A stretch of DNA of 64,000 nucleotides from Tardiphaga sp. 709. Lineage in GTDB: Bacteria > Pseudomonadota > Alphaproteobacteria > Rhizobiales > Xanthobacteraceae. Both the position numbers and the translations under genes were made by a program. The notes under the pieces were generated by a model, which was not told the DNA's origin, searched no databases, and was given only the letters and a program-made list of their open reading frames with translations. The stretch covers positions 3,222,501 to 3,286,500 of the forward strand of contig NZ_CP135529.1 of assembly GCF_032401055.1 (NCBI RefSeq). The letters are read 5' to 3'. Shown here in pieces: positions 13,591-42,509 of this stretch. Positions within the stretch are counted from its first letter, which is position 1, and each line of letters begins with the position of its first letter.

Positions 13591-13608
13591 ATCGGGTGTT
13601 GACCTGAT
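13591..13608. promoter_or_regulatory. Shared near-palindrome, copy 1 (one mismatch)
   Basis: ATCGGG-TGTTG-ACCTGAT, the ATC(A)GGG-N5-CCC(T)GAT motif with one changed base, 53 bp upstream of the DUF3551-like gene. The flank (CACGAT just before ATCGGG) is also shared with the copy at 27602. Confidence 0.55.
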
Positions 13609-13697
13609 CCGAGCCGCGGAATCACCCTTGCGATCACAGCGAAAGATCGTGATGCGCTGGAATGGCTATTGCAGGCGCAACGGTGCAATCGTATCGC

Positions 13698-13982
13698 TCA
13701 CCTGCAATAGCGATGCGATACCGGATGAGATCTTCCGTGCGATGTGCGGACCCAGCAACGACCATGGCGCCAGTAATATCGGTTATGCCAATGCCGCCTG
13801 TGACTCCCCACCGCTGCTCCGGTGGCAGCACCGATGGCCGCACCGCGCCGCCCGCCGACAGCGCCGCCGATGATGGCACCGGACACTGCACCGCGCCCTG
13901 CTGCGCTTTGGGCAAGCGCATCCGCCAGCGGAACCACGGCAGACAGCGTGAGTAGAACGAGCAAGGTTGAGATCCGGCGCAT
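13698..13982 (-). CDS. Small secreted glycine-zipper protein
   Basis: 94 residues. A signal peptide (RRISTLLVLLTLSAVVPLADALA) is followed by a glycine-zipper stretch (GAVSGAIIGGAVGG, then GAAIGAATGAAVG) and a tail rich in His, Arg and Tyr. Glycine-zipper segments of this kind insert into or span membranes in small envelope proteins. Function unknown. AGGGAG precedes ATG 13982. A perfect copy of the shared near-palindrome is 68 bp upstream. A longer open frame from 14089 overlaps it in another reading frame and looks like a shadow. Confidence 0.7.
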   Translation of the reverse strand: MRRISTLLVLLTLSAVVPLADALAQSAAGRGAVSGAIIGGAVGGRRGAAIGAATGAAVGSHRRHWHNRYYWRHGRCWVRTSHGRSHPVSHRYCR

Positions 13983-14050
13983 GCGTAACTCCCTGACAAA
14001 TGAGCCCCCTCACCTGCCCCGATTTGAAATGCACTTGCAGAGCCATAGCC

Positions 14051-14068
14051 ATCGGGAAAAACCCTTGG
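14051..14068. promoter_or_regulatory. Shared near-palindrome, copy 2 (perfect)
   Basis: ATCGGG-AAAAA-CCCTTGG lies between the divergent genes at 13982 (68 bp away) and 14156 (87 bp away). It could serve either or both. Confidence 0.65.
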
Positions 14069-14155
14069 TCGGCGTGCGTCACGCGCCACCGCATGTGTCA
14101 GCGCCTTACTAATTATTCACTGGGACACGCCGCTCTTCCGAATTATTGGAGCGCG

Positions 14156-14359: not shown

Positions 14360-14530
14360 CGGCTTCGCATATGGCTGCCGTCGTATGCGCGGATCGGGAC
14401 ATCGTCGAAGAAGTTGCCGAGTATCAGGGTAAAGCCCGATACCCGCTCAGGTGCTTTCCCTTATATCTCCCGTCGCGCTTCAAATTTTCCGGGCTATCCT
14501 GCACCACGTCGTCATTTACGAGGTTCGGTC

Positions 14531-16009
14531 GTGCGGGCCAGAATCTTCAGATTTGCAAAGATCCTGATGGCGTTTTTCGGCATCGCGCTGATGACGATCT
14601 TCGCTGTGCGCATCTACGATTCGCAGCGCGGACTGCCACTCGAGACATGGCATACCTACGTTCCGCATGAGCTTCATGCGAGCAAGCTGGATACTGCCGA
14701 CTGGGCGCAGTATATGGCGGCTGAGGCGGTGCTTTTCGACGAAGTCCAGCGCGAGGTATCGCAGAAGCTCGATGCGACAGAACGTGTGCCACCCAATCGG
14801 TATTTCGAAGGCAGCCCGGTCTATCCCCCGCATTTCGTGCAGGATTTCAACCGCTCCTTTGTGCTGGAGCCGAAGGGGAAGCCGATCGGGGCGGTCGTGC
14901 TTCTTCATGGCCTGACGGATTCCCCCTACAGCCAGCGCCATATTGCGCGCTTCTACCGCGACCAAGGCTTCCTGGCGATCGTCCCAAGGCTGCCGGCACA
15001 TGGCACGGTTCCGGCCGCGCTGACCGACGTCGAATGGGAAGATTGGTTGGCTGCAACGCGGCTCGCAGTGCGGGAAGTCAAGAAGCGGATGGATACGCCT
15101 GTGCCGCTGCATCTGGTGGGATTTTCCAATGGCGGTGCACTGGCGATCATGTATGCGCTGGATGCCATCGACGACGAAAAACTGTCGCGACCCGACCGCC
15201 TGATATTGATCTCGCCGATGGTCGGCATCACCAGTTTTGCACGCTTTGCCGGCCTCGCGGGATTTCCGGCAATTCTGCCCGCCTTCGCCAAGGCCGCATG
15301 GCTCGATGTCGTTCCGGAGTTCAATCCCTTCAAGTACAATTCATTCCCGGTGAACGGCGCGCGTCAATCGCATCTTCTGACCAGAGCTCTGCAAGGGAGG
15401 CTCGCGCGCTATGCGAGTGAAGGCAGACTGGACCGGTTTCCACCCATCCTGACATTCCAGTCGCTGATGGATTTCACGGTCAGCACGCGGGCCATCGTCT
15501 CCGATCTCTATGCCCATCTGCCGGCCAATGGGAGCGAACTCGTTCTGTTCGACGTCAATCGCACCGCCCGATTTGGCCCCCTGCTCCGCACCAGCACCGA
15601 TACAGCGCTGGCACGCATTGTACCCGCAGGTCCGCGGCGCTACCGCCTCGCCGTCATTACCAATTCCGGCGACAATAATGACGACGTGATCGAGCGTGTG
15701 ACCGAGGCCGGCACTGTCGCCGAGCATGCTCGCCCGCTCGGCCTGAGCTATCCACGAGGCTTCTATTCGCTGTCACATGTCGCGCTGCCATTTCCGGTCA
15801 GCGATTCTCTCTATGGGGCGGAACCGGACAAATCCGAGGATTTTGGCGAGAACCTCGGCACCCTGGCGCCGCGCGGGGAACGCAATGTGCTGATCGCCAG
15901 CCTGGACTCGCTGATGCGGGCGTCATCAAACCCGTTCTTCCCCTACATGGTCGGCCGGATCGGTGAGAGCATTCTCACCCCCGCAAAGACCGTCCAACCC
16001 GCCCGGTAA
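14531..16009 (+). CDS. Membrane-anchored alpha/beta hydrolase
   Basis: 492 residues from GTG 14531, which has GAGG seven bases upstream. One N-terminal membrane helix (ILMAFFGIALMTIFAV) is followed by an extracytoplasmic alpha/beta-hydrolase domain. HGLTDSPYSQR forms the oxyanion region, the nucleophile is Ser199 in GFSNGG, a late aspartate lies in FQSLMDFTVS and the histidine in SLSHVALPF. It resembles serine carboxylesterase / monoacylglycerol-lipase-type enzymes. Substrate unknown. A longer frame to 14414 exists but has no ribosome site. Confidence 0.82.
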   Translation: MRARIFRFAKILMAFFGIALMTIFAVRIYDSQRGLPLETWHTYVPHELHASKLDTADWAQYMAAEAVLFDEVQREVSQKLDATERVPPNRYFEGSPVYPPHFVQDFNRSFVLEPKGKPIGAVVLLHGLTDSPYSQRHIARFYRDQGFLAIVPRLPAHGTVPAALTDVEWEDWLAATRLAVREVKKRMDTPVPLHLVGFSNGGALAIMYALDAIDDEKLSRPDRLILISPMVGITSFARFAGLAGFPAILPAFAKAAWLDVVPEFNPFKYNSFPVNGARQSHLLTRALQGRLARYASEGRLDRFPPILTFQSLMDFTVSTRAIVSDLYAHLPANGSELVLFDVNRTARFGPLLRTSTDTALARIVPAGPRRYRLAVITNSGDNNDDVIERVTEAGTVAEHARPLGLSYPRGFYSLSHVALPFPVSDSLYGAEPDKSEDFGENLGTLAPRGERNVLIASLDSLMRASSNPFFPYMVGRIGESILTPAKTVQPAR

Positions 16010-16021
16010 AGCGATATCAGC

Positions 16022-16966: not shown

Positions 16967-17365
16967 CTGCTTCCCTCTCGAAGCCACGACAAAAATAACC
17001 TCGCATCTGCCGCACGAGGCTAGCCATCAGCACGCAATAGTTAATCGGGAAAAACCCTGAACAGGTCATGATGAGTACCCGGATTGCTCGGGGGAATAAT
17101 GAGCTGGGTTCGGGCGCGCTCTGCGCGCGTGTCCCGTGGAAGATTCCAGGTCATTCGCTGGGACCAGAGCGCCACAAGTGCGGCTGTTTTGCCCCTGTTT
17201 TGGCTGAATCCGAAACTTTAAAGTTCTGTAAGAAAGTTGCAGTGCTGATGGACGAACGCCATTTCCAGGTTGGACGATTGCTCCTCAACTTCCCAGATAT
17301 CGCGGGCCTGGATGGCCAGCCGTCAGAGCAAAGTCATGATCGTCCCTGGAGAGAATGGTCGAGTG
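16967..17365. other. Intergenic region with a shared near-palindrome
   Basis: About 400 bp between DUF992 copy A and the TerB-like gene. It holds the near-palindrome at 17044. A 141-codon frame covering 17068-17493 overlaps the TerB-like gene and has no recognisable content. Nothing else is seen. Confidence 0.5.
17044..17060. promoter_or_regulatory. Shared near-palindrome, copy 3 (perfect)
   Basis: ATCGGG-AAAAA-CCCTGA, 77 bp upstream of DUF992 copy A. Its first 15 bases are identical to the copy at 14051. Confidence 0.65.
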
Positions 17366-21048: not shown

Positions 21049-21386
21049 CAGGATTTGCCCTCGCCATTTACGGCGCCAGAGCTGTCGGAACTGATCGAGG
21101 CCTGGCCAGTCTCATCCGCAAGACGCTGCACCAGCGCGACGGCCATGGCCGTCGCGGCGAAGGCGACGACAATTGCGGTGATCACCATCGCCTGGGGGAC
21201 CGGGTCACCGCCGAGCCCAGCCGCTGCCGCCCGCCTGGCGATCATACCGAACAGGAGAAACACACCACTCCCGAGCAAATTGAATGCAAGGATCTTGCGT
21301 AGCGGTTCGGGATTCGTGATGAGCCCGTACAGTCCGATGCCCACCAGCGCAGCGCCACACAAGCCGAACAGCGTTGCCGCGTTCAT
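21048..21386 (-). CDS. mrpC: Mrp-type antiporter subunit C (NuoK-like)
   Basis: 112 residues with three membrane helices and the NuoK/MrpC pattern: GIGLYGLITNPEPLRKILAF, then LLGSGVFLLFG, then DPVPQAMVITAIVVAFAATA. It packs next to MrpD in the membrane arm. The start is ATG 21386 in an ATGA overlap with the mrpB stop. The frame opens as far as 22352, but everything before 21386 is a shadow of mrpB. Confidence 0.88.
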   Translation of the reverse strand: MNAATLFGLCGAALVGIGLYGLITNPEPLRKILAFNLLGSGVFLLFGMIARRAAAAGLGGDPVPQAMVITAIVVAFAATAMAVALVQRLADETGQASISSDSSGAVNGEGKS

Positions 21387-24617: not shown

Positions 24618-25871
24618 TCAGTAATCTACGGCATCGCGGATGATCGGACAGGTCATACAGTGACCGCCGCCACGGCCGCGACCGAGTTCGGCGCCGACAA
24701 TCGTGATCACCTCGATGCCTTCCTTGCGCAGCAGCGTGTTGGTGTAAGTGTTGCGATCGTAAGCATAGACGACACCTGGCGATGCGCAAACGAGATTGGC
24801 ACCGCTGTCCCATTGGGTTCGTTCCCGCTGGTAGTCACTGCCACCCGCTTCGACCACACGCAGCTTCTTGAGGCCCAGTGCTTCCTCGACAACGCCGACG
24901 AATGACTTCTTCTCCGCATGCAACTCGACACCGCTCGGATGGTCGCTCGGACGATAGGAATAGGTACGTGTCTGGTTCATGAAGTCCGGCGCGAGCAGCA
25001 CGCAGTCGCGGTCGGCGAATGTGAAAACAGTATCGAGATGCATGGCCGCGCGGATCTTCGGCATTGCCGCAACGATCACGCGCTCCGCAGCCTTCTTTTT
25101 AAACAAAGTCGCTGCAAGCTGGCTGATCGCCTGACGGGAGGTGCGCTCGCTCATGCCGATCAGCACCACCCCCTTGCCGATGGGCATCACATCGCCCCCC
25201 TCCAGCGTAGCCAGTCCATGGTCCTCTGTAGGGTCGCCCCACCAGACATTGACGTTGCCGGCAAAATCGGGATGAAACTTGTAGATCGCGGTGGTGAGGA
25301 TCGTTTCCTCATGTCGCGCGGGCCAGTACAGCGCGTTGAGAGTGACACCGCCATAAATCCAGCAGGTCGTGTCGCGCGTATAGAGCGTGTTCGGCAGGGG
25401 CGGCAGAAGGTATTCAGTCGCCCCCGCGGCCTCCTTCACCATCCTGAGTGCAGCGCCACCATGGGCTTCGGGAAAGTCATGAGTCGACAGGCCACCGATC
25501 AGCGTTTCCGCGAGTTTTCGATTGTCCAGCCCGGACAGGTAGCTTTTGAGCTCATCGATGAAGCCAAGGCCGACCTGGTTCGGCACCACCTGATTATCGA
25601 GGATCCAGGCCTTGCCCTCCGGGACTGCCAGCGTCTCGGCGAGCAGGTTATGCATCTCAACGACATCGACCCCGCGGTCCCGCATCTTGGTGACGAAATC
25701 GAAGTGGTCGCGCTTCGCATTATCGACCCAGAGCACATCGTCAAACAGCAACTGGTCGCAATTGGACGGGGTCAAGCGTGTATGGGCAAGGCCCGGAGCA
25801 CAGACCAGGACCTTCCGCAGCTGGCCAACTTCGGAGTGCACACCAAACGGGACTTTTTTTGCACTGGCCAT
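24618..25871 (-). CDS. arcA: Arginine deiminase
   Basis: 417 residues, the normal length for ArcA. It converts arginine to citrulline and ammonia in the cytoplasm. The nucleophile cysteine is about residue 405 in [10 protein letters not shown]; the N-terminal [18 protein letters not shown] and the [14 protein letters not shown] stretch are also typical, and EGGDV with HLDTVF supply substrate-binding residues. GGGAG precedes the ATG pair at 25874/25871. An ArcD-like exchanger gene lies just upstream. No ornithine carbamoyltransferase or carbamate kinase gene is present here, so energy-yielding fermentation cannot be completed from this locus; ammonia release or acid defence is more likely. Confidence 0.93.
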
Positions 25872-25891: not shown

Positions 25892-27322
25892 CTAGATGCT
25901 GATATAGCCGGTGGCGAGGCCGTGGATGCCGACTACGCATCCGACGACAGCGATGCCGAACAGGACCCATTCTGCCGGAGTGAAGAGCTGCTTGTTGAGC
26001 TCCCTCCGTGTGATGAAATACAGGATTGTGCCGGGTGCGTAGATGATGAAGCCAAGCAGCAGAAATTTCATACCGCCAGCGAACAGCAGGAAGATCGTGT
26101 AGGCTGTCGCCAGAACAGCGATGATCGTGTCCTTGCGAAGATCGCTCGGATCGGTCTCGTAAGTCTCCTTGCGGTAGACCAGCATCAGCGCGAAAGCTGC
26201 CGAAAGAAAATAGGGAATCAGCGACAGGTGGCTGCACAGCGACAGAGCGAAGGTGAAGGCATCGTCGGAAAACAACGTCGCGATGAGCACAGCCTGAACA
26301 AGTAGCGTGCTCATCAGGAGCGCCATTGATGGGACCTGGTTTGCGTTTTCGCGCGCCAGGAATGCCGGCATGTCTTGCCGCTTCGCCGCAACCGACAGCA
26401 CTTCGGCAGCCATCAGGGTCCAGGCAAGATAGGCCCCGAGCACCGAGATAATCACACCGATGCCGATGAAGATGGCACCCCAATGACCAACGGCGGCTTC
26501 GAGCACGCCGCCAACCGAGGGCTGGCGCAATTGCGCCAGTTCTTCGCGGGCGAGGATGCCATATGCAAGAATGGAGACGGACGCGAACAAGGCCAGCACG
26601 GCCAGAAATCCCGTCACGGTCGCAATACCAACGTCCTCGCGCCGCTGCGCGAACCGCGAATAGTTGCTGGCGCCTTCGATGCCGAGAAACACGAAGACCG
26701 TGACCAGCATCGTCGCCTTGATCTGCGCGAAGAGATTTCCGTAGTCCCCGCTTGCGCCGCCCCAGAGGTTGCCGACGAACACATCGGGCTTGAGGAAGAA
26801 GATCGCCAGGACCACGAACAGCAGCAGCGGAATGAGTTTGGCGATCGTCACGATCTTGTTGATCGCAGCCGCCTCCTTGACGCCGCGCAGCACAAGGAAA
26901 TGAAACGCCCAGACACCGACCGACGATAGTGCGATGGCAGTGACCGTATTGCCCTGACCGAGCGCGGGGAACAACGCGCCGAGCGTCGACTTGATCAGAA
27001 TCCAATAGGATACGTTGCCGACGCAGGCACTGGCCCAGTAGCCAAAGGCGGAGAAGAAGCCGACATAGGGCCCGAACCCCTCCCGCGCATAGGCGTAAAC
27101 GCCCGCATCGAGATCCGGCTTGCGGTTGGCCAGCGTCTGAAACACAAATCCCAGCATCAGCATGCCGGCACCGGCGACGGCCCACGCGATCAGCGCTCCA
27201 TAGATGCCGGTGGCCTGAGCAAAGTTACGCGGTATCGAAAACACGCCGGCGCCGACCATCCCGCCGACCACCATGGCCGTGAGCGTCCAAAGCGGCAATT
27301 TCTGGTCGCCTGCATTGCTCAT
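25892..27322 (-). CDS. ArcD-like basic amino acid/polyamine antiporter (APC family)
   Basis: 476 residues with about 12 membrane helices. The first helix carries the APC motif [15 protein letters not shown], and [14 protein letters not shown] and [16 protein letters not shown] match ArcD/LysP-type arginine:ornithine exchangers. It is followed 20 bp later by arginine deiminase, so arginine uptake coupled to export of ornithine or citrulline is the natural role. ATG 27322 is chosen (GGGAG ten bases upstream). Two tandem copies of the shared near-palindrome lie 280-320 bp upstream. A second ArcD-like gene is at 35864. Confidence 0.88.
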
Positions 27323-27601
27323 GGCCAAAGCACTCCCATGTGCAGATGCGGTCGGCCCGGAGCAAATGGGACATGCAGGCGACCACCTGCGACCGGGGCC
27401 CGCAAGACGCGGCGACGGGATTGAGGAATGATTGACCGCAAAGGACGTGCGCATCGATTGTATTGCGCAGCCTCATACGGCGGGCGCAACGCCGGTGCGC
27501 GCAAGGCGCGGGCAGATGCAAATAACATCAGGTCTTGCACCATGCGCCCCCTTCCAACATCAACTGCTGGAAAGAAGAGCACATTCGGGATGCACCACGA
27601 T

Positions 27602-27619
27602 ATCGGGTGATGCCCTAGG
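27602..27619. promoter_or_regulatory. Shared near-palindrome, copy 4 (perfect)
   Basis: ATCGGG-TGATG-CCCTAGG, 279 bp upstream of the arcD-like start. It is preceded by CACGAT, as is the copy at 13591; the two flanks agree over about 20 bases. Confidence 0.65.
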
Positions 27620-27625: not shown

Positions 27626-27643
27626 ACGGGGAGTTACCCTAGG
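27626..27643. promoter_or_regulatory. Shared near-palindrome, copy 5 (variant)
   Basis: ACGGGG-AGTTA-CCCTAGG. It repeats the right half of the copy at 27602 exactly (CCCTAGGT), with the centres 24 bp apart, so the two sites may bind protein side by side. Confidence 0.5.
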
Positions 27644-27678: not shown

Positions 27679-30600
27679 CTATGCTGGCGTCGATAGGAGC
27701 GGGTCCGCCGCCCCTTCTTTGCCCCTGAACCATGCCACATACAATGTCGGCAGGAAGATCAGGGTGAGAAGCGTCGCAACCAAGAGCCCACCCATGATCG
27801 CAAAGGCCATCGGTCCCCAGAACACCGTCGGAGCGATCGGGATCATGCCAAGCACAGTCGACACGGCCGTCAGCATGATCGGGCGAAAACGTGAGCTCGA
27901 GGCATCGAGCGCAGCGTCCCACACGCTTTTCCCTTCATCGCGTTCAGCATCGATCTGACCGATCAGGATCACCGCATTTTTTGTGATCATGCCGAGCAGC
28001 GCGAGAATGCCCAGAATCGCAACGAAGCCGAGCGGTCGGCCTGACAGCAGAAGGGCGGCGACCACGCCGATGAGCCCAAGGGGCGCCACGCTCAGGACCA
28101 GAAACAGCCGCTGAAAACTCTGGAGCTGAATCATGAGGACCGTAAACATGATCAGCAGCATCACCGGCACAACGGCGATGACCGACGCCTGCGATTTCTG
28201 ACTTTCTTCGACAGTGCCCCCAACCACGATGCTGTAGGATGCTGGAATGGTCTTCGCCAGGGCAGCAATGGCCGGCGTCAACGAATTGACGACGGATTCC
28301 GGAATTGCACCGGCGGTGATATCCGTCTGCACCGTCAGGGTCGGGACACGGTCGCGCCGCCAGATCAGCGGATATTCCTGCTCGTATTCGAAAGTTGCAA
28401 ACTGGCTGAGCGAAACCGTCTGCCCGCCTGGCAGCGGAACTTGCAAATTACGCAGGTTGGGCAACGAGACGCGCTGCTCATCGATCGCGCGCGCAACGAT
28501 ATCGATCAAATAGATATCATCGCGAACCTGGGTGACCGTGGTGCCTGAGATGACCGTATTCAGCACGCCTGCCAGGGCTTGAGAACTCAGCCCGAGCAAC
28601 CGGGCCTTGTCCTGATTGACCCGAATACGCACCTGCCTTGCCGGCTCGATCCAGTCGAAATTGACACCATTCGCCTTGGGATTGGCGGCGATGACCTGGG
28701 CAAGCTTGAACGCAATTTCGCGCACCATGCCTGCGTCAGGACCGCTGACGCGATATTGAACGGGCCAGCCGACCGGAGGCCCAAGCTCGAGAGGCGAAAC
28801 CCGTGCAATAGCACCGGGAAAATCATTGGCCAGAAGCGTCTCAAGCTTTGCGCGAATGCGTTCACGCGCTGCGACATCCTTTGCGACAACCACTGACTGG
28901 GTAAAGAAATCATTCGGCAGCTGAACATTGAGCGGAAGATAGAACCGGATAGCACCGCGACCCACATAAGTGCTCCAGCGCGCAACATCCGGATCACCCT
29001 GTAGCGCGGCATCGAATCTCTGTGCCGCAGTCTGGCTGGCATAAATGGATGCGTTCTGCGGCAGACTGATATCGACGAGCAACTCCGGACGATCGGACGA
29101 TGGAAAGAATTGCCGGGGGATGAACGGGAGAAGAAGAAACGAGCCGACGAAAAGCACCAGCGAGAGCGCGATGGTCAGCCATTTCGCCCGCATGGCGAAT
29201 ATCAGGAAGCCGCAATACCACCTGAAAACTCTGCCGGGGGCGTCTGTCCCGCGTTGCTTCGGCGGCTTGAGAATGACAACGCCCATCAGCGGCGCGAAGA
29301 TCACGGCAACGAACCATGAGACGATCAGCGCGATACTGACAACGGCAAAGAGGGAGAACGTGTATTCTCCCGCAGAACTCGCGGCGAAGCCGACGGGCAC
29401 AAAGCCCGCGATGGTCACCAGTGTTCCTGCCAGCATGGCGAACGCGTAGGTGCGAAAGGCAAAGCTGGCGGCTTGAACCTTGTCGTCGCCTTCAGCCAGG
29501 CGATTCAGGGTAGCATCCGTGGTGGTCATGGCATCATCGACGAGAAGCGCGAGGGCGATAATGAGTGCGCCGAGCGATATGCGCTGCATGTCGATTCCCG
29601 CGAGCTTCATGATCGGGAAGACGATGGCGAGCGTCAGCGGTATGGACAGCGCAATGATCAGACCCGGGCGCACGCCGAGGCTGATAAAACTCACCACGAG
29701 AATGATGGCAATGGCCTGCAGCAGCGACATCATGAATTCGGAGATCGCGCTCTCGACCGTGACAGCCTGATCGGCAATGAGCTTCGGTTCAATACCAATC
29801 GGAAGATCCGCCGTGATCGCAGCCATCGCCCGCTTGAGACTCTTGCCGAGCGCGAGAATATCTCCGCCGTCACGCATCGAGATGGCCAGGCCAATGGCCG
29901 GCTCGCCGTTGACGCGAAAGAGGGGTTGCGGCGGATCGGAATAGCCGCGCGTAATCCGGGCGATATCACTCAGGCGGATCATGCGCCCGCCGGCAACGAA
30001 ATTGATATCAGCAACATCCTGCTCGGACTGAAATGAGCCTGACACCCGAAGCGATAACGTCTCGTCGCCCGTTTGAATCGTGCCGGCTGGCCTTATGATA
30101 TTCTGCGTCTGGAGAGCAGACAGCAGTGCCGTGCGGTCGATGCCAAGGCTTGCCAGTTCCTTCATCGAGAATTCGACGAAGATCCGCTCGTCCTGGGCTC
30201 CCAGCAACTCGATCTTCGATACGTCGGGGACAAGAAGAAGCTTCGAGCGGACGTCTTCCACATAGTCGCGAAGCGCGCGGTGCGTGAAGCCATCGCTCGT
30301 GAAGCCATAGATAATCCCGAACGTATCGCCGAAATCATCGTTAAACCCCGGTCCGACCACCCCTGCCGGCAGCGTATGGCGGATGTCGCCAATGTTCTTG
30401 CGGACCTGATACCAGGTGTCGGCGACCTGTTTGGCGTTCGCGTTCCCCTGCAGGTTTACGAAGATTGTGGTGACGCCTGCCCGCGTGAAACTGCGCAGGA
30501 AATCCAGATGCGGTGTTTCCTGCAGCTTGCGCTCGAGCCGCTCCGTAACCTGCTTGACGGTCTCCTCGACCGTTGCTCCGGGCCATGCCGCCTGAACGAC

Positions 30601-30744
30601 CATCGTCTTGATGATGAACGACGGGTCCTCGCTGCGACCGAGCCGGAAATAGGACAGGACACCGAAGATAACGGCAACAATCATGACATAGATCACCAGG
30701 GAACGGTGCTTAAGTGCCCATTCCGAGAGATTGAAGCCGGTCAT
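27679..30744 (-). CDS. RND efflux pump inner-membrane permease
   Basis: 1021 residues, the usual size. Twelve membrane helices and two large periplasmic loops of the AcrB/MexF fold are recognisable. The TM4 aspartate pair is in ALLVDDAMTTTD, and GMITKNAVILIGQID lies in the TM10 region. It is the proton-driven part of a tripartite exporter. The start ATGA overlaps the stop of the adaptor gene. No outer-membrane channel gene is beside it, so a TolC-like partner from elsewhere is needed. Substrates cannot be read from sequence; the N-terminus (RSLVIYVMIVAVIFG) is like drug-type rather than heavy-metal pumps. Confidence 0.92.
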   Translation of the reverse strand: MTGFNLSEWALKHRSLVIYVMIVAVIFGVLSYFRLGRSEDPSFIIKTMVVQAAWPGATVEETVKQVTERLERKLQETPHLDFLRSFTRAGVTTIFVNLQGNANAKQVADTWYQVRKNIGDIRHTLPAGVVGPGFNDDFGDTFGIIYGFTSDGFTHRALRDYVEDVRSKLLLVPDVSKIELLGAQDERIFVEFSMKELASLGIDRTALLSALQTQNIIRPAGTIQTGDETLSLRVSGSFQSEQDVADINFVAGGRMIRLSDIARITRGYSDPPQPLFRVNGEPAIGLAISMRDGGDILALGKSLKRAMAAITADLPIGIEPKLIADQAVTVESAISEFMMSLLQAIAIILVVSFISLGVRPGLIIALSIPLTLAIVFPIMKLAGIDMQRISLGALIIALALLVDDAMTTTDATLNRLAEGDDKVQAASFAFRTYAFAMLAGTLVTIAGFVPVGFAASSAGEYTFSLFAVVSIALIVSWFVAVIFAPLMGVVILKPPKQRGTDAPGRVFRWYCGFLIFAMRAKWLTIALSLVLFVGSFLLLPFIPRQFFPSSDRPELLVDISLPQNASIYASQTAAQRFDAALQGDPDVARWSTYVGRGAIRFYLPLNVQLPNDFFTQSVVVAKDVAARERIRAKLETLLANDFPGAIARVSPLELGPPVGWPVQYRVSGPDAGMVREIAFKLAQVIAANPKANGVNFDWIEPARQVRIRVNQDKARLLGLSSQALAGVLNTVISGTTVTQVRDDIYLIDIVARAIDEQRVSLPNLRNLQVPLPGGQTVSLSQFATFEYEQEYPLIWRRDRVPTLTVQTDITAGAIPESVVNSLTPAIAALAKTIPASYSIVVGGTVEESQKSQASVIAVVPVMLLIMFTVLMIQLQSFQRLFLVLSVAPLGLIGVVAALLLSGRPLGFVAILGILALLGMITKNAVILIGQIDAERDEGKSVWDAALDASSSRFRPIMLTAVSTVLGMIPIAPTVFWGPMAFAIMGGLLVATLLTLIFLPTLYVAWFRGKEGAADPLLSTPA

Positions 30745-31862
30745 TGCTCAGACCCAAGCAGGCGTATTTTCTGGCCGGGGTGGAGTGCCTGCACACCCGC
30801 GGTCACGACGACCTCCCCCGTGTCGAGACCCTGCGACACGACGACCTGCGCTTGCTCGAAGCGCAAGACGTCCACGTTTCGGATCGAAACCGTGCGGCTC
30901 GCGGGATCGACGATCCAGACCGCGGGCTGTTGATTGGCCCTCGTCAATGCCGATGCCGGGATCTCTATGATGGGGACGGCATCCATTTCCATGCGCCCCA
31001 CGACGGTCGCGCCAAGCCGCATGGCCGCCGGCGGATTCGTCAGGCCAACCTTGATTTCAAAGGTGCGCGTGACGGGATCGGCCTGGGCGCCAACCTCACG
31101 GATACGACCATGAGCCGTCACCTCGGGATCGTCCGTCAGGCTTACGGCTATTTGCGGATCGCTCGGTGCCGATCGGAAAAATTGGGCCGGCACGTCAAAA
31201 ACTGCGTCGCGGCCATCCTGACGCGCCAGCCGGAGAATCATTTGCCCGGCCTGGACAACTTCTCCAGCGCCAGGTCCGACAGCGGTTATGACGCCCGGTG
31301 CGTCGACCTTCAGCTCGGTAAAGCTCACCAGATCATGTGCCGTCTTGAGCTGGGCCTCAGCGGCATCGACCTGCGATTGAGCGGTTTGTTGCGCCTGCGT
31401 TGCCTGGTCGTAGTTGACGCGGGTGGTCCAGCCCTGTGCAAGCAGTGTCTGCTGGCGATCGAAATGGTTGCGGGCCTGGGTCAGTTGCCCCTGCGCGGCC
31501 GCGACTGCCGCCTGGGCCTGGCGCAACGTGTTCAACTCATTCTGGGATTCAAGCCGCGCGATGACCTGACCGGGCTGCACTCGGTCTCCGGTTTTCCCGT
31601 TGTTTTCGATGAGCCGGCCCGAGATGCGAAATGCCAGCGCCACCTCGTCTTCCGCTTCGATACGGCCGGTGAATGAAAGCGGCGCGCCCGCAACGCTCTT
31701 CGCAACAGTGATGGTACGCACGGGCCGCACGACAGGAGCAGTCTCAGCGGCCTCTCTTCCACACGCCGCCAGCAGAAGCGCCGGCACAATTGTTAGAATA
31801 ATTATAATCGTCCGATATCGTGCCACTCGGCATAGGTAGGTATGACGAGCATACGCAGGCAT
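30741..31862 (-). CDS. RND efflux periplasmic adaptor lipoprotein
   Basis: 373 residues. A lipoprotein signal ends in LLLAACG (lipidated Cys34). The barrel-sandwich part (RIEAEDEVALAFRISGRL) is split by a coiled-coil hairpin rich in Ala and Gln (AAVAAAQGQLTQARNHFDRQ), then a beta-barrel and a C-terminal domain follow. This is the HlyD/AcrA membrane-fusion design. GAGGG seven bases upstream supports ATG 31862. It is the first gene of the pump operon, and a variant near-palindrome lies 145 bp upstream. Confidence 0.9.
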   Translation of the reverse strand: MPAYARHTYLCRVARYRTIIIILTIVPALLLAACGREAAETAPVVRPVRTITVAKSVAGAPLSFTGRIEAEDEVALAFRISGRLIENNGKTGDRVQPGQVIARLESQNELNTLRQAQAAVAAAQGQLTQARNHFDRQQTLLAQGWTTRVNYDQATQAQQTAQSQVDAAEAQLKTAHDLVSFTELKVDAPGVITAVGPGAGEVVQAGQMILRLARQDGRDAVFDVPAQFFRSAPSDPQIAVSLTDDPEVTAHGRIREVGAQADPVTRTFEIKVGLTNPPAAMRLGATVVGRMEMDAVPIIEIPASALTRANQQPAVWIVDPASRTVSIRNVDVLRFEQAQVVVSQGLDTGEVVVTAGVQALHPGQKIRLLGSEQ

Positions 31863-32331
31863 GAAGAAACCCTCACTGAGCAAAATTGCACGCCAGATTC
31901 GCTGACCGCCTCGCAAAAGCAGATAGCTGGCTTTTGCCTGCGTGATCGCTTGCCCGCCAATTCTTCTGTGACTGAGAGTATTCTGGGGGTGCGGATATCT
32001 ACCGGGTATCGGGGAAACTACTGATCACACCAACGATTCTCCGGCGCCCTGCTGGACACTCTCGAACCGCAGCAAGATCCATGCGCCAGTTGAAAGGCGA
32101 TGAGTTCCTTGTGCAAAGCAAACGCGGCAATTAACTGAAATTACTTCTATTGTTACTTCGTATATTTTCAGACTGAGTATAGTCAGTCGCGACATCGGAC
32201 GATTTGCGACATCTTACTTGACGCTGATTCAATCAGAGGTATTTAGTAGGCCTAACTTCGTGCAGAAGAACGATGGCATTTAACCTTAGTGGTTATCTGA
32301 CACATCGCTCGACCCAGATGCATCGGACTAC
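31863..32331. other. Divergent intergenic region between the RND operon and the histidine kinase gene
   Basis: About 470 bp, clearly richer in A and T than the neighbouring genes around 32120-32290. It holds the near-palindrome variant at 32008. No small gene or RNA is recognised. Confidence 0.45.
32008..32025. promoter_or_regulatory. Shared near-palindrome, copy 6 (variant)
   Basis: ATCGGG-GAAAC-TACTGAT, two changes in the right half, 145 bp upstream of the RND adaptor gene and about 300 bp upstream of the histidine kinase gene. TACCGGGTA lies directly before it. Confidence 0.45.
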
Positions 32332-33189
32332 ATGATGGCCCACAAGGCTCACGTAGACGAATCGTGTCGAATTCATGTTCGGGCAAAGGTCGTAGGTCAC
32401 GACACTTTCGACGGCACTGCTAGTGCGCGAACAAAATCGAAACTTGGCAAATCAAGCCTTGGTATCCAGCTTTTGGCGCTGCAAGAGGATATGCAGCAGC
32501 GGATTGCATCAGACCTTCACGATTCGACTTGCCAGCATCTGCTGGCCGCGAGTTTGAATATGATGCGAATGAGGTGCGCTGTCGCTGGCATCGGCAGCGC
32601 CATAGACATTTGCGATGAGATCGACGCGTCGATCTGTGAGGCCCTTAGGGAAATCAGGGCTTTCACCTACCTCCTGCATCCCCAGAATTTGCTCGACGGC
32701 GGATTGAAGTCGGCGATCGAGGAGTTTGTGGTGGGGCTTTCATCGCGGACATCGCTGGAAACGCGTCTCAAGATCGATGCTGCGGTCGATGCATTGCCTA
32801 ACGAAACGCAGCGCTCATTGCTGAGAGTTGTCCAGGAAGCGCTCGCGAACGTCTTCAGGCACGCGAAAGCGACGCAGGTAAGTATCTCGATCAAGGCCAC
32901 AGACACCAACGTCACGCTTCGGATTAGCGATAACGGCTGCGGAATGCCGATTTCTCGAGCGAGAGATGGCTATAAAGCAGTGCCGCTTGGTGTTGGAATT
33001 CCGGCCATGAGAGCGAGACTGGATCAGATGGGAGGCACGTTTGAGATCCACTCGTCATCCACAGCGGTATGTAGCGGGACAACGGTGTACGCGACTATTC
33101 CACGAGCCATCTCGCGCAAAGGAAACAAGCCAGTGAATATCCACCAGGGCGGCCGAGGATCGGCGAAGATCCGACCGTCGCATGGCTAA
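32332..33189 (+). CDS. Cytosolic NarX/UhpB-type histidine kinase without sensor domain
   Basis: 285 residues. A HisKA_3 dimerisation domain carries the phospho-accepting His63 in RIASDLHDSTCQHLL. A HATPase domain follows: N box VVQEALANVFRHAKA, G1 ISDNGCGMP, G2 GVGIPAMRARLDQMGG. There are no membrane helices and no recognisable PAS or GAF domain; only about 45 residues precede the DHp helix. It could be driven by a partner sensor or act mainly as a phosphatase. Start support is poor (ATGs at 32332 and 32335 without a clear ribosome site). The two downstream NarL-type regulators are the likely partners. Codon and base use are less GC-rich than in the flanking operons. Confidence 0.85.
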   Translation: MMAHKAHVDESCRIHVRAKVVGHDTFDGTASARTKSKLGKSSLGIQLLALQEDMQQRIASDLHDSTCQHLLAASLNMMRMRCAVAGIGSAIDICDEIDASICEALREIRAFTYLLHPQNLLDGGLKSAIEEFVVGLSSRTSLETRLKIDAAVDALPNETQRSLLRVVQEALANVFRHAKATQVSISIKATDTNVTLRISDNGCGMPISRARDGYKAVPLGVGIPAMRARLDQMGGTFEIHSSSTAVCSGTTVYATIPRAISRKGNKPVNIHQGGRGSAKIRPSHG

Positions 33190-33310: not shown

Positions 33311-33940
33311 ATGAAGCAGATTATGATAGCCGATGATCATGACGCGGTGCGGGCTGGAATTCGTGCAGTTCTGGAACGACGTCCCGGATGGGAGGTCGTT
33401 GCCGAGGCCCGCGATGGAAAAGAGGCCGTTGCTTGCGCCATCGAGAAGCATCCGGATGTCGCTATCGTTGATTACTCGATGCCATTCATGACCGGCCTCG
33501 AAGTTGCAAGGCGGATGAAGGAGTACAAGCTCGCAACAGAGGTGCTCATCTTCACGATGCACGACTCGATCGCGCTCGAGCTACAAGCATCTCAAGTTGG
33601 CGTTCGCGCATTCCTACGAAAATCCGATGCCAACAAAATGCTTCTCGCGGCCGTTGAATCACTGATGCATCACAGATCGTTTTATGCCGGCGAGGCTTGC
33701 GACACGATGGTCGGATCGGCTGACGGAAATATTGGCACAGGCCGATCGCTTTCGCCGCGAGAGAAGACAGTCGTAAAACTGGTTGCCGAGGGTTACAGCA
33801 ACAAGCGTGTAAGCGAGACCTTGAATTTGAGTATCAAAACGACCGAGACCCACCGAGCTGCGGCGATGCGCAAGCTCAACGTAAAATCGACTGCAGGTCT
33901 GGTTCGGTACGCCGTTCGAAATAATCTGGTAGAAGCATGA
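33311..33940 (+). CDS. NarL/FixJ-type response regulator 1
   Basis: 209 residues. The receiver domain (1-120) has acidic pair Asp8-Asp9, phospho-acceptor Asp54 in VAIVDYSMP, Thr in FTMHDS and Lys in FLRKSD. A LuxR-type helix-turn-helix (SLSPREKTVVKLVAEGYSNK, then LNLSIKTTETHRAAAMRKL) fills the C-terminus. The start has GAGG three bases upstream. It is 120 bp after the kinase gene. The protein at 34072 is close to it along its whole length, so the pair arose by duplication. Confidence 0.9.
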   Translation: MKQIMIADDHDAVRAGIRAVLERRPGWEVVAEARDGKEAVACAIEKHPDVAIVDYSMPFMTGLEVARRMKEYKLATEVLIFTMHDSIALELQASQVGVRAFLRKSDANKMLLAAVESLMHHRSFYAGEACDTMVGSADGNIGTGRSLSPREKTVVKLVAEGYSNKRVSETLNLSIKTTETHRAAAMRKLNVKSTAGLVRYAVRNNLVEA

Positions 33941-34071: not shown

Positions 34072-34707
34072 GTGAAGCAGATCTTGATTGCAGACGATCA
34101 TGAAGTGGTGCGATCCGGACTACGCGCGATCGTCGAAAGCCGCGCGGACTGGGCCGTGAGCGGAGAAGCGAGCGATGGCAGGGCCGCGGTCGCCATGATC
34201 AGGGAGTTGAAGCCGGATATAGCAATTATCGACTACTCCATGCCCGTCCTGAACGGTCTGGAGGTGAGCCGTCAGATCAAGTTGCATCACCCCCGGACGG
34301 AGGTGCTCATCCTGACAATGCATGAAAGCAATGAAATCCTCACCGAATCCCTCCTGGCGGGGATACGAGGCTTCTTGCTGAAGTCAGATGCGAGACATCA
34401 TCTCATTGCAGCGATCGATGCACTACTCAATCACCGGCCTTACTTCACCGGTGTGGTCGTGGAAAAATTACTTCACGACTACCTGGCCAGCAAGAAGGAC
34501 AAATCGAAAGTCCTGCTGTCGTTACGCGAGCAGAACGTTGTTCAGCTGATCGCCGAAGGACACACCAACAAGTCCGTCGGCACGGTACTGAATCTCAGCG
34601 TGAAAACTGTCGAAGCCCACCGCGCATCCGCCATGCGCAAGCTTGGAGTTTCCTCCACTGCCGAACTGGTCCGGTATGCAATTCGCATGAAACTGATTGG
34701 ACCCTAG
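34072..34707 (+). CDS. NarL/FixJ-type response regulator 2
   Basis: About 211 residues from GTG 34072, chosen because it aligns with the start of regulator 1 (VKQILIADDHE against MKQIMIADDHD); GTG 34045 is an alternative. The receiver has Asp54 in IAIIDYSMP, Thr in LTMHES and Lys in FLLKSD. The LuxR helix-turn-helix reads SLREQNVVQLIAEGHTNKSV, then LNLSVKTVEAHRASAMRKLG. The recognition helices of the two regulators are nearly the same, so they may bind the same DNA. The transporter at 34732 follows after 24 bp. Confidence 0.9.
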   Translation: MKQILIADDHEVVRSGLRAIVESRADWAVSGEASDGRAAVAMIRELKPDIAIIDYSMPVLNGLEVSRQIKLHHPRTEVLILTMHESNEILTESLLAGIRGFLLKSDARHHLIAAIDALLNHRPYFTGVVVEKLLHDYLASKKDKSKVLLSLREQNVVQLIAEGHTNKSVGTVLNLSVKTVEAHRASAMRKLGVSSTAELVRYAIRMKLIGP

Positions 34708-38109: not shown

Positions 38110-38128
38110 ATCAGGTGTTTCCCCTAGG
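38110..38128. promoter_or_regulatory. Shared near-palindrome, copy 7 (variant)
   Basis: ATCAGGT-GTTTC-CCCTAGG, 109 bp upstream of the gene at 38000. The left half is the ATCAGGG form; the right half CCCTAGG equals the copies at 27602 and 27626. Confidence 0.5.
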
Positions 38129-38230: not shown

Positions 38231-38248
38231 ATCGGGAAATCCCCTGGG
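38231..38248. promoter_or_regulatory. Shared near-palindrome, copy 8 (perfect)
   Basis: ATCGGG-AAATC-CCCTGGG, 119 bp upstream of the gene at 38368 and 230 bp upstream of the gene at 38000. Confidence 0.6.
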
Positions 38249-38367
38249 TCCCCTAAGGTGATCATCCGATATCGCATCGGCCTCGCAGAGGCCTAGGCTA
38301 GCTTTTTGAAGGAGGCCGCGACGTTTCGGAATTCGCGACAGCGGACAGAATTACGACTGGATCGTCG

Positions 38368-39450: not shown

Positions 39451-39452
39451 CG

Positions 39453-39923
39453 CTAGCGTAACGTCAGCGTCGCTATTCCCGCAGCAAGGCTCACACCAAT
39501 CTGGCGCTCAAGCGACAGTGGCTGGAGCATCACGGTCCTGCGGGATCCCCCGATCAGAACATTCGCCCCCAGACCCGGGCCAAACGCCACACTGCCACTC
39601 GCGCCGACGTAATTTCCACGGAGCGTACCGCGGCCGACCTGTGAGTTTCGGGCGAAGACCCGCCAGACCAGCGCGCTCGACGGAGTCACGCCGAGATCCA
39701 GGCCGATGCGGCGCACCGTTCCCTCATAGATGTACTGCCGTGACGCATTTCGTACCCTGAACACGCATCGCAGCGTCTGACGCGAGCCGATAATCAGTCC
39801 AATCCGGGGATTGCTCATACATGTCAGCGTTCCCGCCCTGAATGCGGCAGAGGAAGCCGGCGGCGATGAGACGCAAAGCAAAAGGGATGCGCCGAAAAGT
39901 CCAAGCAGGGCCTTCTTGATCAT
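39453..39923 (-). CDS. DUF992 secreted protein, copy B
   Basis: 156 residues. A signal peptide (MIKKALLGLFGASLLLCVS) is followed by the DUF992 domain: GTLTCMSNPRIGLIIGSRQ, LRCVFRV, RRIGLDLGVT, RGTLRGNYVGASG and NVLIGGSRRTVML. It is the paralogue of the gene at 16493. GGAGG precedes ATG 39923. No good match to the shared near-palindrome is seen upstream, unlike copy A. Confidence 0.85.
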   Translation of the reverse strand: MIKKALLGLFGASLLLCVSSPPASSAAFRAGTLTCMSNPRIGLIIGSRQTLRCVFRVRNASRQYIYEGTVRRIGLDLGVTPSSALVWRVFARNSQVGRGTLRGNYVGASGSVAFGPGLGANVLIGGSRRTVMLQPLSLERQIGVSLAAGIATLTLR

Positions 39924-40097
39924 GGGAGCCTCCACTTTCTGCGCGGGAATATGACAGCGGTCACTCGGCGCCGCAAGATCGCCACCTCAGGCACAACTCG
40001 CAAGCTGACTCGATTTCGATTCGAATAGTTACGACGCGATGCGGCTCGGCGCGCTTTCTGGTCGAGCCATTTCTGCCGACGATTGCGAGTGATAGCA

Positions 40098-41924
40098 TTA
40101 CGCGATCGATGATCTGGCGGTCGCATCCTCCGCCGCATCCGTACGGTCACTCGCGCCCGCCAGCACGTCGATCCGCTCCGGCTCAAGCAAGCAAAGCTGC
40201 TCATCCGGCCCCGCCGCAAGTCTGTGAATATAGAAGTGCGTGCTGGCTGCATCAGCAGCGGCCATGACCGGTGACGGCGCCGAAATGACCTTCAACGATC
40301 CAAAGGTGCCGATCCAGTCGATATGGCGATGCCCGTGCATGACGACGGCCCGATCGGCAAAGGCCTTCAGCCGACGTACAAACCAGCTGCCGTTGATCAC
40401 GGCCGTTCCGATGCGTTCCGCGAAAGCGGTCACTGGCATCGGATACTCCATCAGGTGATGGTGCAACGCGATTATCCAGCGCGCTTTCGGGAACTCAGCG
40501 ATAAAAGCCTCCAGCCGGCGGGTCTGCTCGATCGAGACGAGGCCAAGTGCATTGGTAAAGGAGAAATGTGTTTCAGCATTGGAATTGAGCAGCGCTATGC
40601 CGAGTCCATTCTCCTCCAGAGGCGGGACCACCATCGGGTACAGGTCATCGAAGACCCCACGCAACCGGGCTGCACGCTGCAGGCCACCGAGATCCGCGAA
40701 ATCCGCCATCTGACGGCGATAGGGAACCAATGCGTCATTCAGTGTCGTTGTATGACCTTTCCCGTCTTTCACAACAAACGCACGATCGCCCTGAATGGCA
40801 GCGATTGTCGAAATCGTGCGAACCTGCCGCAACCGTTTGCCCGGACTGAACGGGAGATCCAGCCGCGCCGGATTCGCCCGGTCCACGATGTTGATATCGT
40901 GATTTCCGGGCAGCACGAACATGCGCGCGACGAGGTCCGGATAGCGCGACAGGACGTCCAGAAACTCCGCCCATTCGGTCGCCCGTCCAGCATCGGTCAT
41001 GTCGCCGCTGATCAGCACATGGTCGAGCGGATCAACGGCGTGAATAGCGGCCAGCCGCGCCATCACCTGCTGCAGACGCTCATTTCCCCGCGCCCCGGCG
41101 CGCCCGCTTTCAATGCGAAAACCGTAACGTTCGCCAACCACATGGAGGTCCGACAAATGAGCCACGCGCCAGATCCTGGCATGCGCCGGCGCTGCATCGA
41201 AAGCGACGAGATCAACAGGCTGCGCCATGCGGGCATCCGCCAGACCCCAGACAAGCGATGCCCCGGCAAGGTAGCCGCATATCAAGACTGCGGCATTTGC
41301 CAGCGTCGGAATGATCAAACGATGAGGAACACCAAGATCTTCCAGGCTTCCTGTCCAGCGCGAGGCCGGCCAGGCCCATATCGCGACCGCCACGGCGCAA
41401 ATAGAGATGGCGATTCCGGCCGCGGCCGAATTCACCGCGCGGAGCCGCGCTCTTCCGTGCACGGCCAGATGTTTTCCCAGCACCTTCTCCGTCAGATGCT
41501 GCAGCCCTTCGCGGCCGAAGACGTATCCCGGCTGGATGGTAAGTGCATTGAGAGACCAGAAGTTGACCTCAGCGACCCGAAACAGAGGCTTCCAGCCGAT
41601 CCACCCCAGCGCGACAATCCCGATTGCCACCAGGAACGCACCGATCTCCGTCAGTACGAGAACCTTGTCCGACAGAGTTGAGAGCCACGCAGAAGCAACC
41701 AATGCCGCGAGGCCCAACGACACCGCCGGCAGCAACAACGATACGGTCCAGGCAAACAGGAGCTTTGGCAGACTGACTTCAACAAGCAGGCTCCCGGCCA
41801 TCGAGAGCAGGGTTCGCTGGTCAGGGCTGGCGGCATCATCCTCGATATCGCCCCGCCGCGGGTCGATTGTTTCTTCGTTCCACCCCCTCGCCGGTTTGCC
41901 TCCTCCCGCATCCCCTCTGTTCAT
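40098..41924 (-). CDS. Membrane metallophosphoesterase
   Basis: 608 residues. The N-terminal third has five or so hydrophobic segments (LLFAWTVSLLLPAVSLGLAAL, VLTEIGAFLVAIGIVALGWI and others). A calcineurin-like phosphoesterase domain follows with all metal-binding motifs: HLSDLHV, SGDMTD, LPGNHD, LHHHLME and MHGHRH. It would cleave a phosphodiester or phosphomonoester; the substrate is unknown, and the topology puts the active site either in the cytoplasm or the periplasm. AGAGG precedes ATG 41924. A perfect near-palindrome lies 75 bp upstream. Confidence 0.88.
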   Translation of the reverse strand: MNRGDAGGGKPARGWNEETIDPRRGDIEDDAASPDQRTLLSMAGSLLVEVSLPKLLFAWTVSLLLPAVSLGLAALVASAWLSTLSDKVLVLTEIGAFLVAIGIVALGWIGWKPLFRVAEVNFWSLNALTIQPGYVFGREGLQHLTEKVLGKHLAVHGRARLRAVNSAAAGIAISICAVAVAIWAWPASRWTGSLEDLGVPHRLIIPTLANAAVLICGYLAGASLVWGLADARMAQPVDLVAFDAAPAHARIWRVAHLSDLHVVGERYGFRIESGRAGARGNERLQQVMARLAAIHAVDPLDHVLISGDMTDAGRATEWAEFLDVLSRYPDLVARMFVLPGNHDINIVDRANPARLDLPFSPGKRLRQVRTISTIAAIQGDRAFVVKDGKGHTTTLNDALVPYRRQMADFADLGGLQRAARLRGVFDDLYPMVVPPLEENGLGIALLNSNAETHFSFTNALGLVSIEQTRRLEAFIAEFPKARWIIALHHHLMEYPMPVTAFAERIGTAVINGSWFVRRLKAFADRAVVMHGHRHIDWIGTFGSLKVISAPSPVMAAADAASTHFYIHRLAAGPDEQLCLLEPERIDVLAGASDRTDAAEDATARSSIA

Positions 41925-42509
41925 GGCACCGCCTCTTGTGAGCAGGCACAGCCCCGTCACCAGAGTGATACTATCACACCTTCGACAGTATCCACGCGCA
42001 TCAGGGTTTGACCCGATGCAACATCACCGCTCGTATCATGTAATTACTAAGACATGGCGAGAGACGCCCACGACAAATACGGACAGGTAACTGAAAATTG
42101 CGACATGCCGATCTAATCAAGCGGCTTAAGATTCCTGCAAATTGAGACAGCGAGGCATACCCATCTTTCTGTTCCGATTGACGGACTACACCTTTGGTAA
42201 TATCCATTCGCCCTGTGCGATATCAAAAATCAGGCTGACAAAAAGCCGGAACGGAGTCCCATGGACCCGCAGTCGATCGCAACACAGGCTGGGCTGCCTG
42301 ATGTCCCGACCGGGCAATCGACCTGGTCGGAGACTGTTCAAGGGCTGGCGCCTGAAACCCAAAATCGCTTCACAATAGCTTTCATTGGCGAACTATCATT
42401 CGTGCGCCCATGCACGCCTGTGCTCCGCCATTACCGGCTCTGCCGCGCAACTCCGGTGCCTCCTTATATCTCTGACGTTCCTTTTCCTATCCGTGAAAGG
42501 AGAAGTCCT
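41925..42509. other. Divergent intergenic region, about 585 bp
   Basis: Holds the near-palindrome at 42000 near its left end. The rest has no gene-like frame apart from an upstream extension of the small gene at 42510, which lacks a recognisable protein. Confidence 0.45.
42000..42017. promoter_or_regulatory. Shared near-palindrome, copy 9 (perfect, most symmetrical)
   Basis: ATCAGGG-TTTGA-CCCGAT; with flanks it reads GCATC...GATGC, an inverted repeat of five outer bases. It lies 75 bp upstream of the metallophosphoesterase gene. Confidence 0.65.

Follow-up and report, generated by a model that had tools for sequence, protein, structure and literature searches.

Intergenic gaps within a 28-kb island of the Tardiphaga sp. 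709 genome share an 18-bp imperfect palindrome, ATCRGG-N6-CCYGAT, which recurs in Bradyrhizobium around the same genes for a histidine kinase and two response regulators. The island lies in a stretch of 64,000 nucleotides of contig NZ_CP135529.1 (positions 3,222,501 to 3,286,500; hereafter the window, to which coordinates refer unless stated otherwise), and the two response regulator genes, RR1 and RR2, start at 33311 and 34072. The sites are predicted operators of RR1/RR2 through which a local envelope, acid or low-oxygen stress regulon would be activated; we put the probability of this reading at roughly 0.82. What the computation shows directly is the site, how well it is conserved, that it tends to point at genes, how far it lies from a -10-like hexamer (in Bradyrhizobium) and that it is linked to the kinase/regulator set.

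Occurrence and form of the site in Tardiphaga

An earlier note on this DNA had reported five exact copies of ATCGGG-N5-CCCT and four variants (13591, 27626, 32008 and 38110). We found all nine in the window, together with a sixth exact copy on the minus strand (14426-14440) that had been missed, so that the exact matches are 14051+, 14426-, 17044+, 27602+, 38231+ and 42003-. Dinucleotide shuffles of the window gave an expected number of 0.16, with no more than one match in any of 100 shuffles. In the whole genome (6,359,564 bases in two contigs) there were 10 copies, and 6 of the 10 fell within the 28-kb island; at the genome's own mean density, the Poisson probability of six copies in 28.4 kb is ~1e-11. 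Figures for the whole Tardiphaga sp. 709 genome come from pattern searches and from a 400-kb sample.

Varying the spacer, as ATCGGG-N(0-14)-CCCT, produced 136 matches genome-wide; among the matches listed, which covered the island, all six island matches had a spacing of 5. This spacing control replaced a control with the backward pattern, because the latter contains TAG and is a poor control for composition; the two-mismatch genome counts obtained with it (213 compared to 24 for the backward pattern) were set aside. All ten window sites that we checked (13591, 14051, 14423, 17044, 27602, 32008, 38110, 38231, 38253 and 42000) were intergenic in a span of which only ~9% is non-coding, with gene coordinates that were partly approximate. 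The site at 38253 is an addition to those listed before. A matrix scan of the flanking parts of the window (1-13000 and 43501-64000) gave no site with a score of at least 14, and 400 kb of control DNA from the same genome gave two sites. The island itself had 12 matrix-scored positions; these include the training sites and are not independent. The same holds for a sequence model (R1) with eight genomic matches, all eight in the island: all were in its training set and only 150 of the 999 first-look candidates were scored, and we set this result aside.

The symmetrical form proposed earlier, ATCAGGG-N5-CCCTGAT, had at least three mismatches even at its best match in the window. We replaced it with ATCRGG-N6-CCYGAT, for which six perfect copies were found in the genome, three of these in the window (13591, 14423 and 42000). 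In an alignment of Tardiphaga sp. 709 with three genomes of the same genus (four in all), 15 to 18 of the 18 site columns were invariant, while the flanks were mostly invariant in 75 to 116 of 160 columns (Table 1). At 13591 the contrast is uninformative, the flank itself being invariant at 141 of 160 columns. The island copies have individual flanks and share only ~18 bp of common sequence. Two further candidates were dropped, one at 14186 that is coding and one at 33924 whose conservation was no better than that of its own flank.

Test on held-out loci of Bradyrhizobium

Of 195 Bradyrhizobium genomes sampled, 56 had a kinase match at E 1e-50 or better, and the matches listed fell at 61 places. 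We scanned up to 20 kb around 40 of the 61 places, 791 kb in total, with a matrix built from 19 Tardiphaga sites, so that no Bradyrhizobium DNA was in the training set. The 40 loci were the best-scoring places, excluding G104 (read separately), G222 and a second copy of G340; arbitrary stretches from 13 of the same Bradyrhizobium genomes served as 400 kb of control DNA. At a score of at least 14, the loci contained 100 sites, with 39 of the 40 loci hit, compared to 4 sites in the control DNA. At a score of 16 the numbers were 64 and 0. Fisher's test by base gave P ~2e-13 for loci against control, a value that overstates independence since the loci are related by descent. When 200 column-permuted matrices were run on the loci, the mean was 7.4 sites and the maximum 35. 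In G104 we found four sites with a score of at least 14.

Outside called genes lay 71 of the 100 locus sites (and one of the four control sites), although called genes make up ~90% of the locus sequence. Equal frequency inside genes had been named in the earlier note as an outcome that would speak against a regulon, as had a lack of conservation before orthologous genes; the sites were kept in the same-genus genomes and before Bradyrhizobium orthologs. Its proposal of a new regulon with an intergenic near-palindrome is therefore supported, and the kinase-RR1-RR2 set recurs together with the sites.

The three genes were collinear in 36 of the 40 Bradyrhizobium loci. Among the 12 families that recurred in at least 12 loci, the response regulators were the sole recognised DNA-binding family; one family of 85-aa proteins had no Pfam match. 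Kinase orthologs with 89-93% identity were found in the same-genus genomes G001, G005 and G010. The second contig of Tardiphaga sp. 709 (99.8 kb, probably a plasmid) carries a paralogous set (G000:C2:36000-39000) with identities of 75% for the kinase, 73% for RR1 and 75% for RR2, and three untrained sites with a score of at least 14 were found there in 40 kb. These second-contig sites lie near DUF1269 and autotransporter genes (L070/L071).

Target genes

For each gene of the Bradyrhizobium loci we took the best upstream site with a score of at least 13 and called it directed when its CCGAT half was towards the gene. Such sites preceded 26 of 34 ArcD genes (23 of the 26 directed at the gene), all 14 genes for the membrane fusion protein (MFP) of the RND operon (8 of 14 directed), 13 of 21 Bax inhibitor genes (11 of 13), 14 of 21 DUF1269 genes (5 of 14), 7 of 8 DUF6894 genes (0 of 7), 3 of 3 DUF3551 genes (3 of 3) and 2 of 3 HdeD-like genes (2 of 2). 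The sites upstream of DUF6894 probably belong to a divergent gene. The sequence ACTAGGTAATCACCCGAT was found at many Bradyrhizobium arcD genes. On the other hand, seven further conserved families, 106 genes in all (OMP 22, AI-2E transporter 18, ArcA 18, RND 17, DUF992 12, the 85-aa protein 12 and TMP2 7), had no upstream site of this score, and the remaining locus genes had one in 24 of 451 cases.

Targets common to both genera are ArcD, the MFP-RND operon and DUF3551, and the HdeD region is probably a target in both. Thus, of the targets suggested for the window previously, arcD, MFP-RND and DUF3551 recur, while DUF992 (0 of 12) and the membrane protein at 38368 (0 of 7) are siteless in Bradyrhizobium. 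The metallophosphoesterase (40098-41960, minus strand), formerly assigned to the site at 42000, now stands as an alternative: the site seems to be directional, and the likely target now lies on the plus strand, in the genes at 42261 and 42803 (HdeD-like).

Direction, distance to the -10 hexamer and tandem site

Oriented to its gene, the Bradyrhizobium site reads NNNAGG-N6-CCCGAT. At a score of at least 13.5 there were 105 sites, 75 of them outside genes. Within 300 bp of these 75, a gene start was found in the predicted direction for 64 and in the opposite direction for 37; the start was in the opposite direction only for 4, and in neither for 7.

For 55 Bradyrhizobium sites, left after the removal of near-identical downstream sequences, we looked for TANNNT on the gene-proximal side. 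It started exactly 22 nt past the gene-proximal half-site in 16 of the 55, and a match in two or more of the three key bases was present there in 36, compared to the highest counts of 2 full and 11 partial matches at control offsets (0 to 45, outside 21-23). On the opposite side no peak was seen at 22; partial matches reached 21 of 55 at offset 10 and 20 of 55 at offset 13, both in the region of a second site. The 22-nt spacing therefore puts the site between about -52 and -35, with its centre near -43.5, which is the position of a class II activator. In the window, at least two of the three key bases occurred at 23 nt for 7 of 10 sites.

Upstream of the sites the mean matrix score was about -20, rising to -8 at 22 bp and to -11 at 23 bp, which marks a weak tandem site; a comparable increase at +8 falls on the site itself. 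The arcD promoter of the window shows the tandem arrangement in the pair 27602/27626.

Kinase and response regulators

The consensus sequences of RR1 and RR2 (from 37 and 38 relatives) have an intact phosphoacceptor region, with the acidic pair and the aspartate conserved by eye. No PAS domain was found in the Tardiphaga kinase (32332-33189). A Bradyrhizobium relative of the kinase carries PAS_4, and this N-terminal region is also seen in the consensus of 39 aligned relatives but is missing in Tardiphaga; therefore, the signal may differ there or come via another protein.

Between RR1 and RR2 in Bradyrhizobium we observed a conserved, sub-threshold sequence of the type TTATCCCGC(A/G)AAACCC (L066 11520, L067 11502, L068 11532). 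It is possibly a variant autoregulatory site.

Distant relatives and partial natural controls

Within the family we also scanned five kinase loci of more remote relationship (in G039, G093, G075 and G087, and the second kinase of G005). Sites with a score of at least 14 were found in two of the five, one in L083 and two in L084. Near the distant kinase relative of L084 (39-43% identity, another genus of the family) lies a perfect 22-bp palindrome, CTATCGGGTCTAGACCCGATAG, at L084:12318-12339.

On Microvirga plasmids, with kinases of ~37-41% identity, five sites scoring at least 14.0 were found in three of five loci (five of six places were scanned, with no Microvirga control DNA). In M. lotononidis three sites fell in one locus, beside a relative of RR2 and an alpha/beta hydrolase that shares 59% identity with the 14531 protein. 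A site with a score of 14.6 lies ~100 bp upstream of this hydrolase gene; its counterpart in the window is the site at 14423.

Single genomes provided partial natural controls. Bradyrhizobium G164 had no kinase match and kept DUF992-TMP2 (62 and 70% identity); its 20-kb stretch with these genes had no site above 11.5. The same-genus genome G012 had the complete kinase set, with four sites across 20 kb, of which one lies within an RND gene. The scan of 30 DUF992 loci, mostly of distant paralogs, from 16 genomes presumed to be kinase-free gave two distinct sites of at least 14 (14.3 in G012 and 14.0 in G011). A search for arcD in the same 16 genomes (G012, later found to carry the kinase set, was among them) returned nothing at E 1e-80; arcD was therefore unusable as a kinase-free test.

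Interpretation and alternatives

Because the sites are linked to the kinase/regulator set, we infer that RR1 and/or RR2 bind them; activation over repression and the kind of signal are likewise predicted from sequence. In the mechanism proposed here, the kinase at 32332 would phosphorylate RR1 and/or RR2, and the phosphorylated regulator would bind the 18-bp imperfect palindrome as a dimer, with the CCCGAT half facing the target promoter and abutting the -35 region (site centre near -43.5). A second dimer may occupy the weaker site frequently present 22-24 bp, or two helical turns, upstream, and polymerase would be recruited. The position of the site and the tandem arrangement suggest that the regulator most likely activates a local regulon in the class II manner. 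The putative regulon would include arginine deiminase, ArcD antiporters, the RND pump, and HdeD-like, Bax-inhibitor-like, DUF1269, DUF992, DUF3551 and glycine-zipper proteins; such a target set suggests acid, low-oxygen or envelope stress.

Several observations weigh against this interpretation. The direction rule is imperfect (directed at the gene in 8 of 14 cases for MFP, 5 of 14 for DUF1269 and 0 of 7 for DUF6894), partly because divergent genes share one gap. In the window the distance to the -10 hexamer is kept loosely, with TANNNT at 21-23 nt for 2 of the 10 sites, and a strict pattern of site plus -10 hexamer, with four matches genome-wide and one in the island, is too strict for Tardiphaga. 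The second tandem site is weak: at -22 only 4 of 54 exceed a score of 4. Upstream sites of at least 13 were found for 1 of 39 kinase genes and 1 of 75 response regulator genes in Bradyrhizobium, so autoregulation is unsupported. The distant family kinase loci L085, L086 and L239 had no site of at least 14 in the matrix scan, nor had two of the five scanned Microvirga kinase loci; G011, a genome without a kinase match, has its site of 14.0 close to a pair of DUF992 paralogs. An unbiased search for trinucleotide dyads in Bradyrhizobium intergenic DNA ranked GGT-N6-CTA third among distinct dyads and did not single out the motif; related species share unselected DNA. Finally, RR1 and RR2, both predicted binders, cannot be told apart in this role.

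We consider it unlikely that the response regulators repress their targets by occluding RNA polymerase from a site that abuts the -35 region. By the 22-nt spacing the site ends near -35, a position also open to a repressor; however, the fixed distance from site to -10 hexamer and the weak tandem site two turns upstream fit an activator that replaces the -35 contact, as activators do at class II promoters. Quite unlikely, too, is that some other, unlinked regulator uses the sites as true operators, with the kinase/regulator set merely a fellow member of the island. Such a regulator would fit the general lack of a strong site at the kinase and response regulator genes themselves, the G011 site and the absence of sites of 14 from 5 of the 10 more remote kinase loci, binding by RR1 or RR2 being a prediction. 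Against it, the sites are concentrated near the kinase set on both Tardiphaga contigs and at 39 of the 40 Bradyrhizobium loci, and a global regulator agrees poorly with 10 exact copies genome-wide and two matrix sites in 400 kb elsewhere.

A mobile or structural element (a small repeat, an inverted repeat or an RNA structure) would account for copies that are clustered and near-palindromic, yet it is very improbable given that each copy has its own flanks around ~18 common bp, and that the sites precede particular families (0 of 106 in seven others) at a preferred distance from a -10-like hexamer. Against chance or base composition, a concern with one GC-rich genome and a first count made by eye, stand the spacing control, dinucleotide shuffles and permuted matrices; the held-out genus refutes it, and its probability is practically negligible.

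Beyond the activation of a local regulon by RR1/RR2, one can tentatively picture a self-contained stress module of Hyphomicrobiales, composed of a kinase, two paralogous response regulators and an operator code of its own. The two unequal half-sites (proximal CCCGAT, distal CTNAGG), together with the tandem site, might accommodate an RR1/RR2 heterodimer or two different dimers per promoter; the module might duplicate and move as a unit (chromosome and second contig) and recruit stress genes through the 18-bp site, and in Tardiphaga the kinase might have lost its PAS domain and receive its input from elsewhere. This picture as a whole is rather doubtful.

The analysis defines an operator explicitly, names a probable pair of regulators and lists predicted targets of a system present in Bradyrhizobium (56 of 195 genomes) and Tardiphaga, with hints in Microvirga, and the prediction is directly testable. 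A shared regulator would give a functional handle on DUF992, DUF1269, DUF3551 and Bax-inhibitor-like proteins of unknown function. The predicted targets include arginine deiminase and the ArcD antiporter, and arginine-dependent acid tolerance, according to one study on another rhizobium, matters for the Sinorhizobium symbiosis (PMC7268258).

Comparison with known systems

The combination of a HisKA_3 kinase with Response_reg and GerE regulators is of the same type as in the NarL/FixJ-family regulons of VraR, RcsB, DevR/DosR and NarL; among solved structures, the best matches of RR2 include VraR, RcsB, DevR and NarL. Regulators of this family bind palindromic sites as dimers, and the DosR operator is of the GGGAC type, with a dormancy gene set. 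To our knowledge, ATCRGG-N6-CCYGAT is unlike any site of VraR, RcsB, DevR/DosR or NarL. The island system also differs from these regulons in having two regulators per kinase and in an RcsB score under the NCBIfam cut-off. The NarL scores (94.1 for RR1 and 100.8 for RR2) were below the cut-off of 250, and among the best 25 of 92 NCBIfam matches for RR1 and the best 25 of 90 for RR2 no named regulator family was above its cut-off.

The best-scoring named NCBIfam family for the kinase, RR1 and RR2 was MctSR, with scores far under the cut-offs (174 of 300 for RR2, 144 of 300 for RR1 and 125 of 700 for the kinase). Its name suggests monocarboxylate transport, and the island target genes differ from those that the name suggests. 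The low-oxygen cascade FixLJ-FixK2 of Bradyrhizobium belongs to the same bacterial family and has FixJ-type regulators, with a possible low-oxygen link via the island arginine deiminase. However, the FixJ scores (92.6 for RR1 and 77.2 for RR2) lay below the cut-off of 255, and the island site differs from the FixK box, TTGAT-N4-ATCAA.

Enterobacterial acid-fitness regulons comprise EvgA/RcsB, HdeD and arginine systems. The island is like them in its NarL-family regulators, an HdeD-like protein, arginine-dependent acid tolerance and an RND pump; the scores of RR2 for EvgA (90 of 251) and of the 42803 protein for HdeD (37 of 189) were both under the cut-off. In rhizobia, PMC7268258 describes arginine deiminase as part of the acid tolerance needed for symbiosis in Sinorhizobium, and PMC4070871 gives the enzyme as present in B. 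diazoefficiens and not in B. japonicum. In the open full-text literature we found nothing for the motif strings, for DUF992 together with a response regulator or for Tardiphaga regulons (most subscription literature lies outside this scope), and no title or abstract beginning among the matches listed there describes the island system. The regulon is thus new, but the system to which it belongs is of a familiar type.

Features of the island

Table 1. Predicted operator sites and main genes of the island. The strand of a site is the direction of its predicted target gene; the last two columns give invariant positions in the four-genome alignment.
Feature	Position	Strand	Predicted target or remark	Site columns	Flank columns
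Operator site ATCAGGTCAACACCCGAT	13591..13608	-	towards DUF3551-like gene 13319-13537 (-)	16/18	141/160
Operator site CCAAGGGTTTTTCCCGAT	14051..14068	-	towards glycine-zipper gene 13698-13982 (-)	17/18	75/160
Operator site ATCAGGGTAAAGCCCGAT	14423..14440	+	towards alpha/beta hydrolase 14531-16009 (+)	18/18	116/160
Operator site TTCAGGGTTTTTCCCGAT	17044..17061	-	towards DUF992 gene 16493-16987 (-)	18/18	111/160
Operator site CCTAGGGCATCACCCGAT	27602..27619	-	arcD-arcA, proximal site	17/18	116/160
Second, upstream site of the arcD tandem pair	27626..27643	-	24 bp from the 27602 site	15/18	
Operator site ATCAGTAGTTTCCCCGAT	32008..32025	-	towards MFP-RND operon 31916-27679 (-)	17/18	108/160
Variant operator site CTAGGGGAAACACCTGAT	38110..38127	-	upstream of membrane protein/arcD2 genes (-)	16/18	79/160
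Operator site CCCAGGGGATTTCCCGAT	38231..38248	-	towards 38102-35864 (-)	15/18	106/160
Operator site CTAAGGTGATCATCCGAT	38253..38270	+	towards membrane protein 38368-39051 (+); 22 bp from the 38231 site	17/18	99/160
Operator site ATCAGGGTTTGACCCGAT	42000..42017	+	by the direction rule, towards 42261 and HdeD-like 42803-43429 (+)	16/18	91/160
Arginine deiminase ArcA	24618..25865	-	above NCBIfam cut-off		
ArcD-like basic amino acid antiporter	25892..27454	-	arginine-ornithine antiporter NCBIfam score 552/591, under cut-off		
RND efflux pump and MFP operon	27679..31916	-	fusion protein recognised from its sequence		
Histidine kinase, HisKA_3 + HATPase_c	32332..33189	+	both domains above Pfam cut-off		
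Response regulator RR1, Response_reg + GerE	33311..33940	+	domain search		
Response regulator RR2, Response_reg + GerE	34072..34707	+	most conserved of kinase, RR1 and RR2 relative to Bradyrhizobium		
DUF308/HdeD-like membrane protein	42803..43429	+	NCBIfam HdeD score 37/189, under cut-off		

The island also contains Mrp-type antiporter/NADH-dehydrogenase-like genes (17891-22352, minus strand), with none of the listed sites directly before them. On the second contig we observed a gene (L070:1246-8883) whose product of 2545 aa combines domains of animal haem peroxidase and RTX repeat type.

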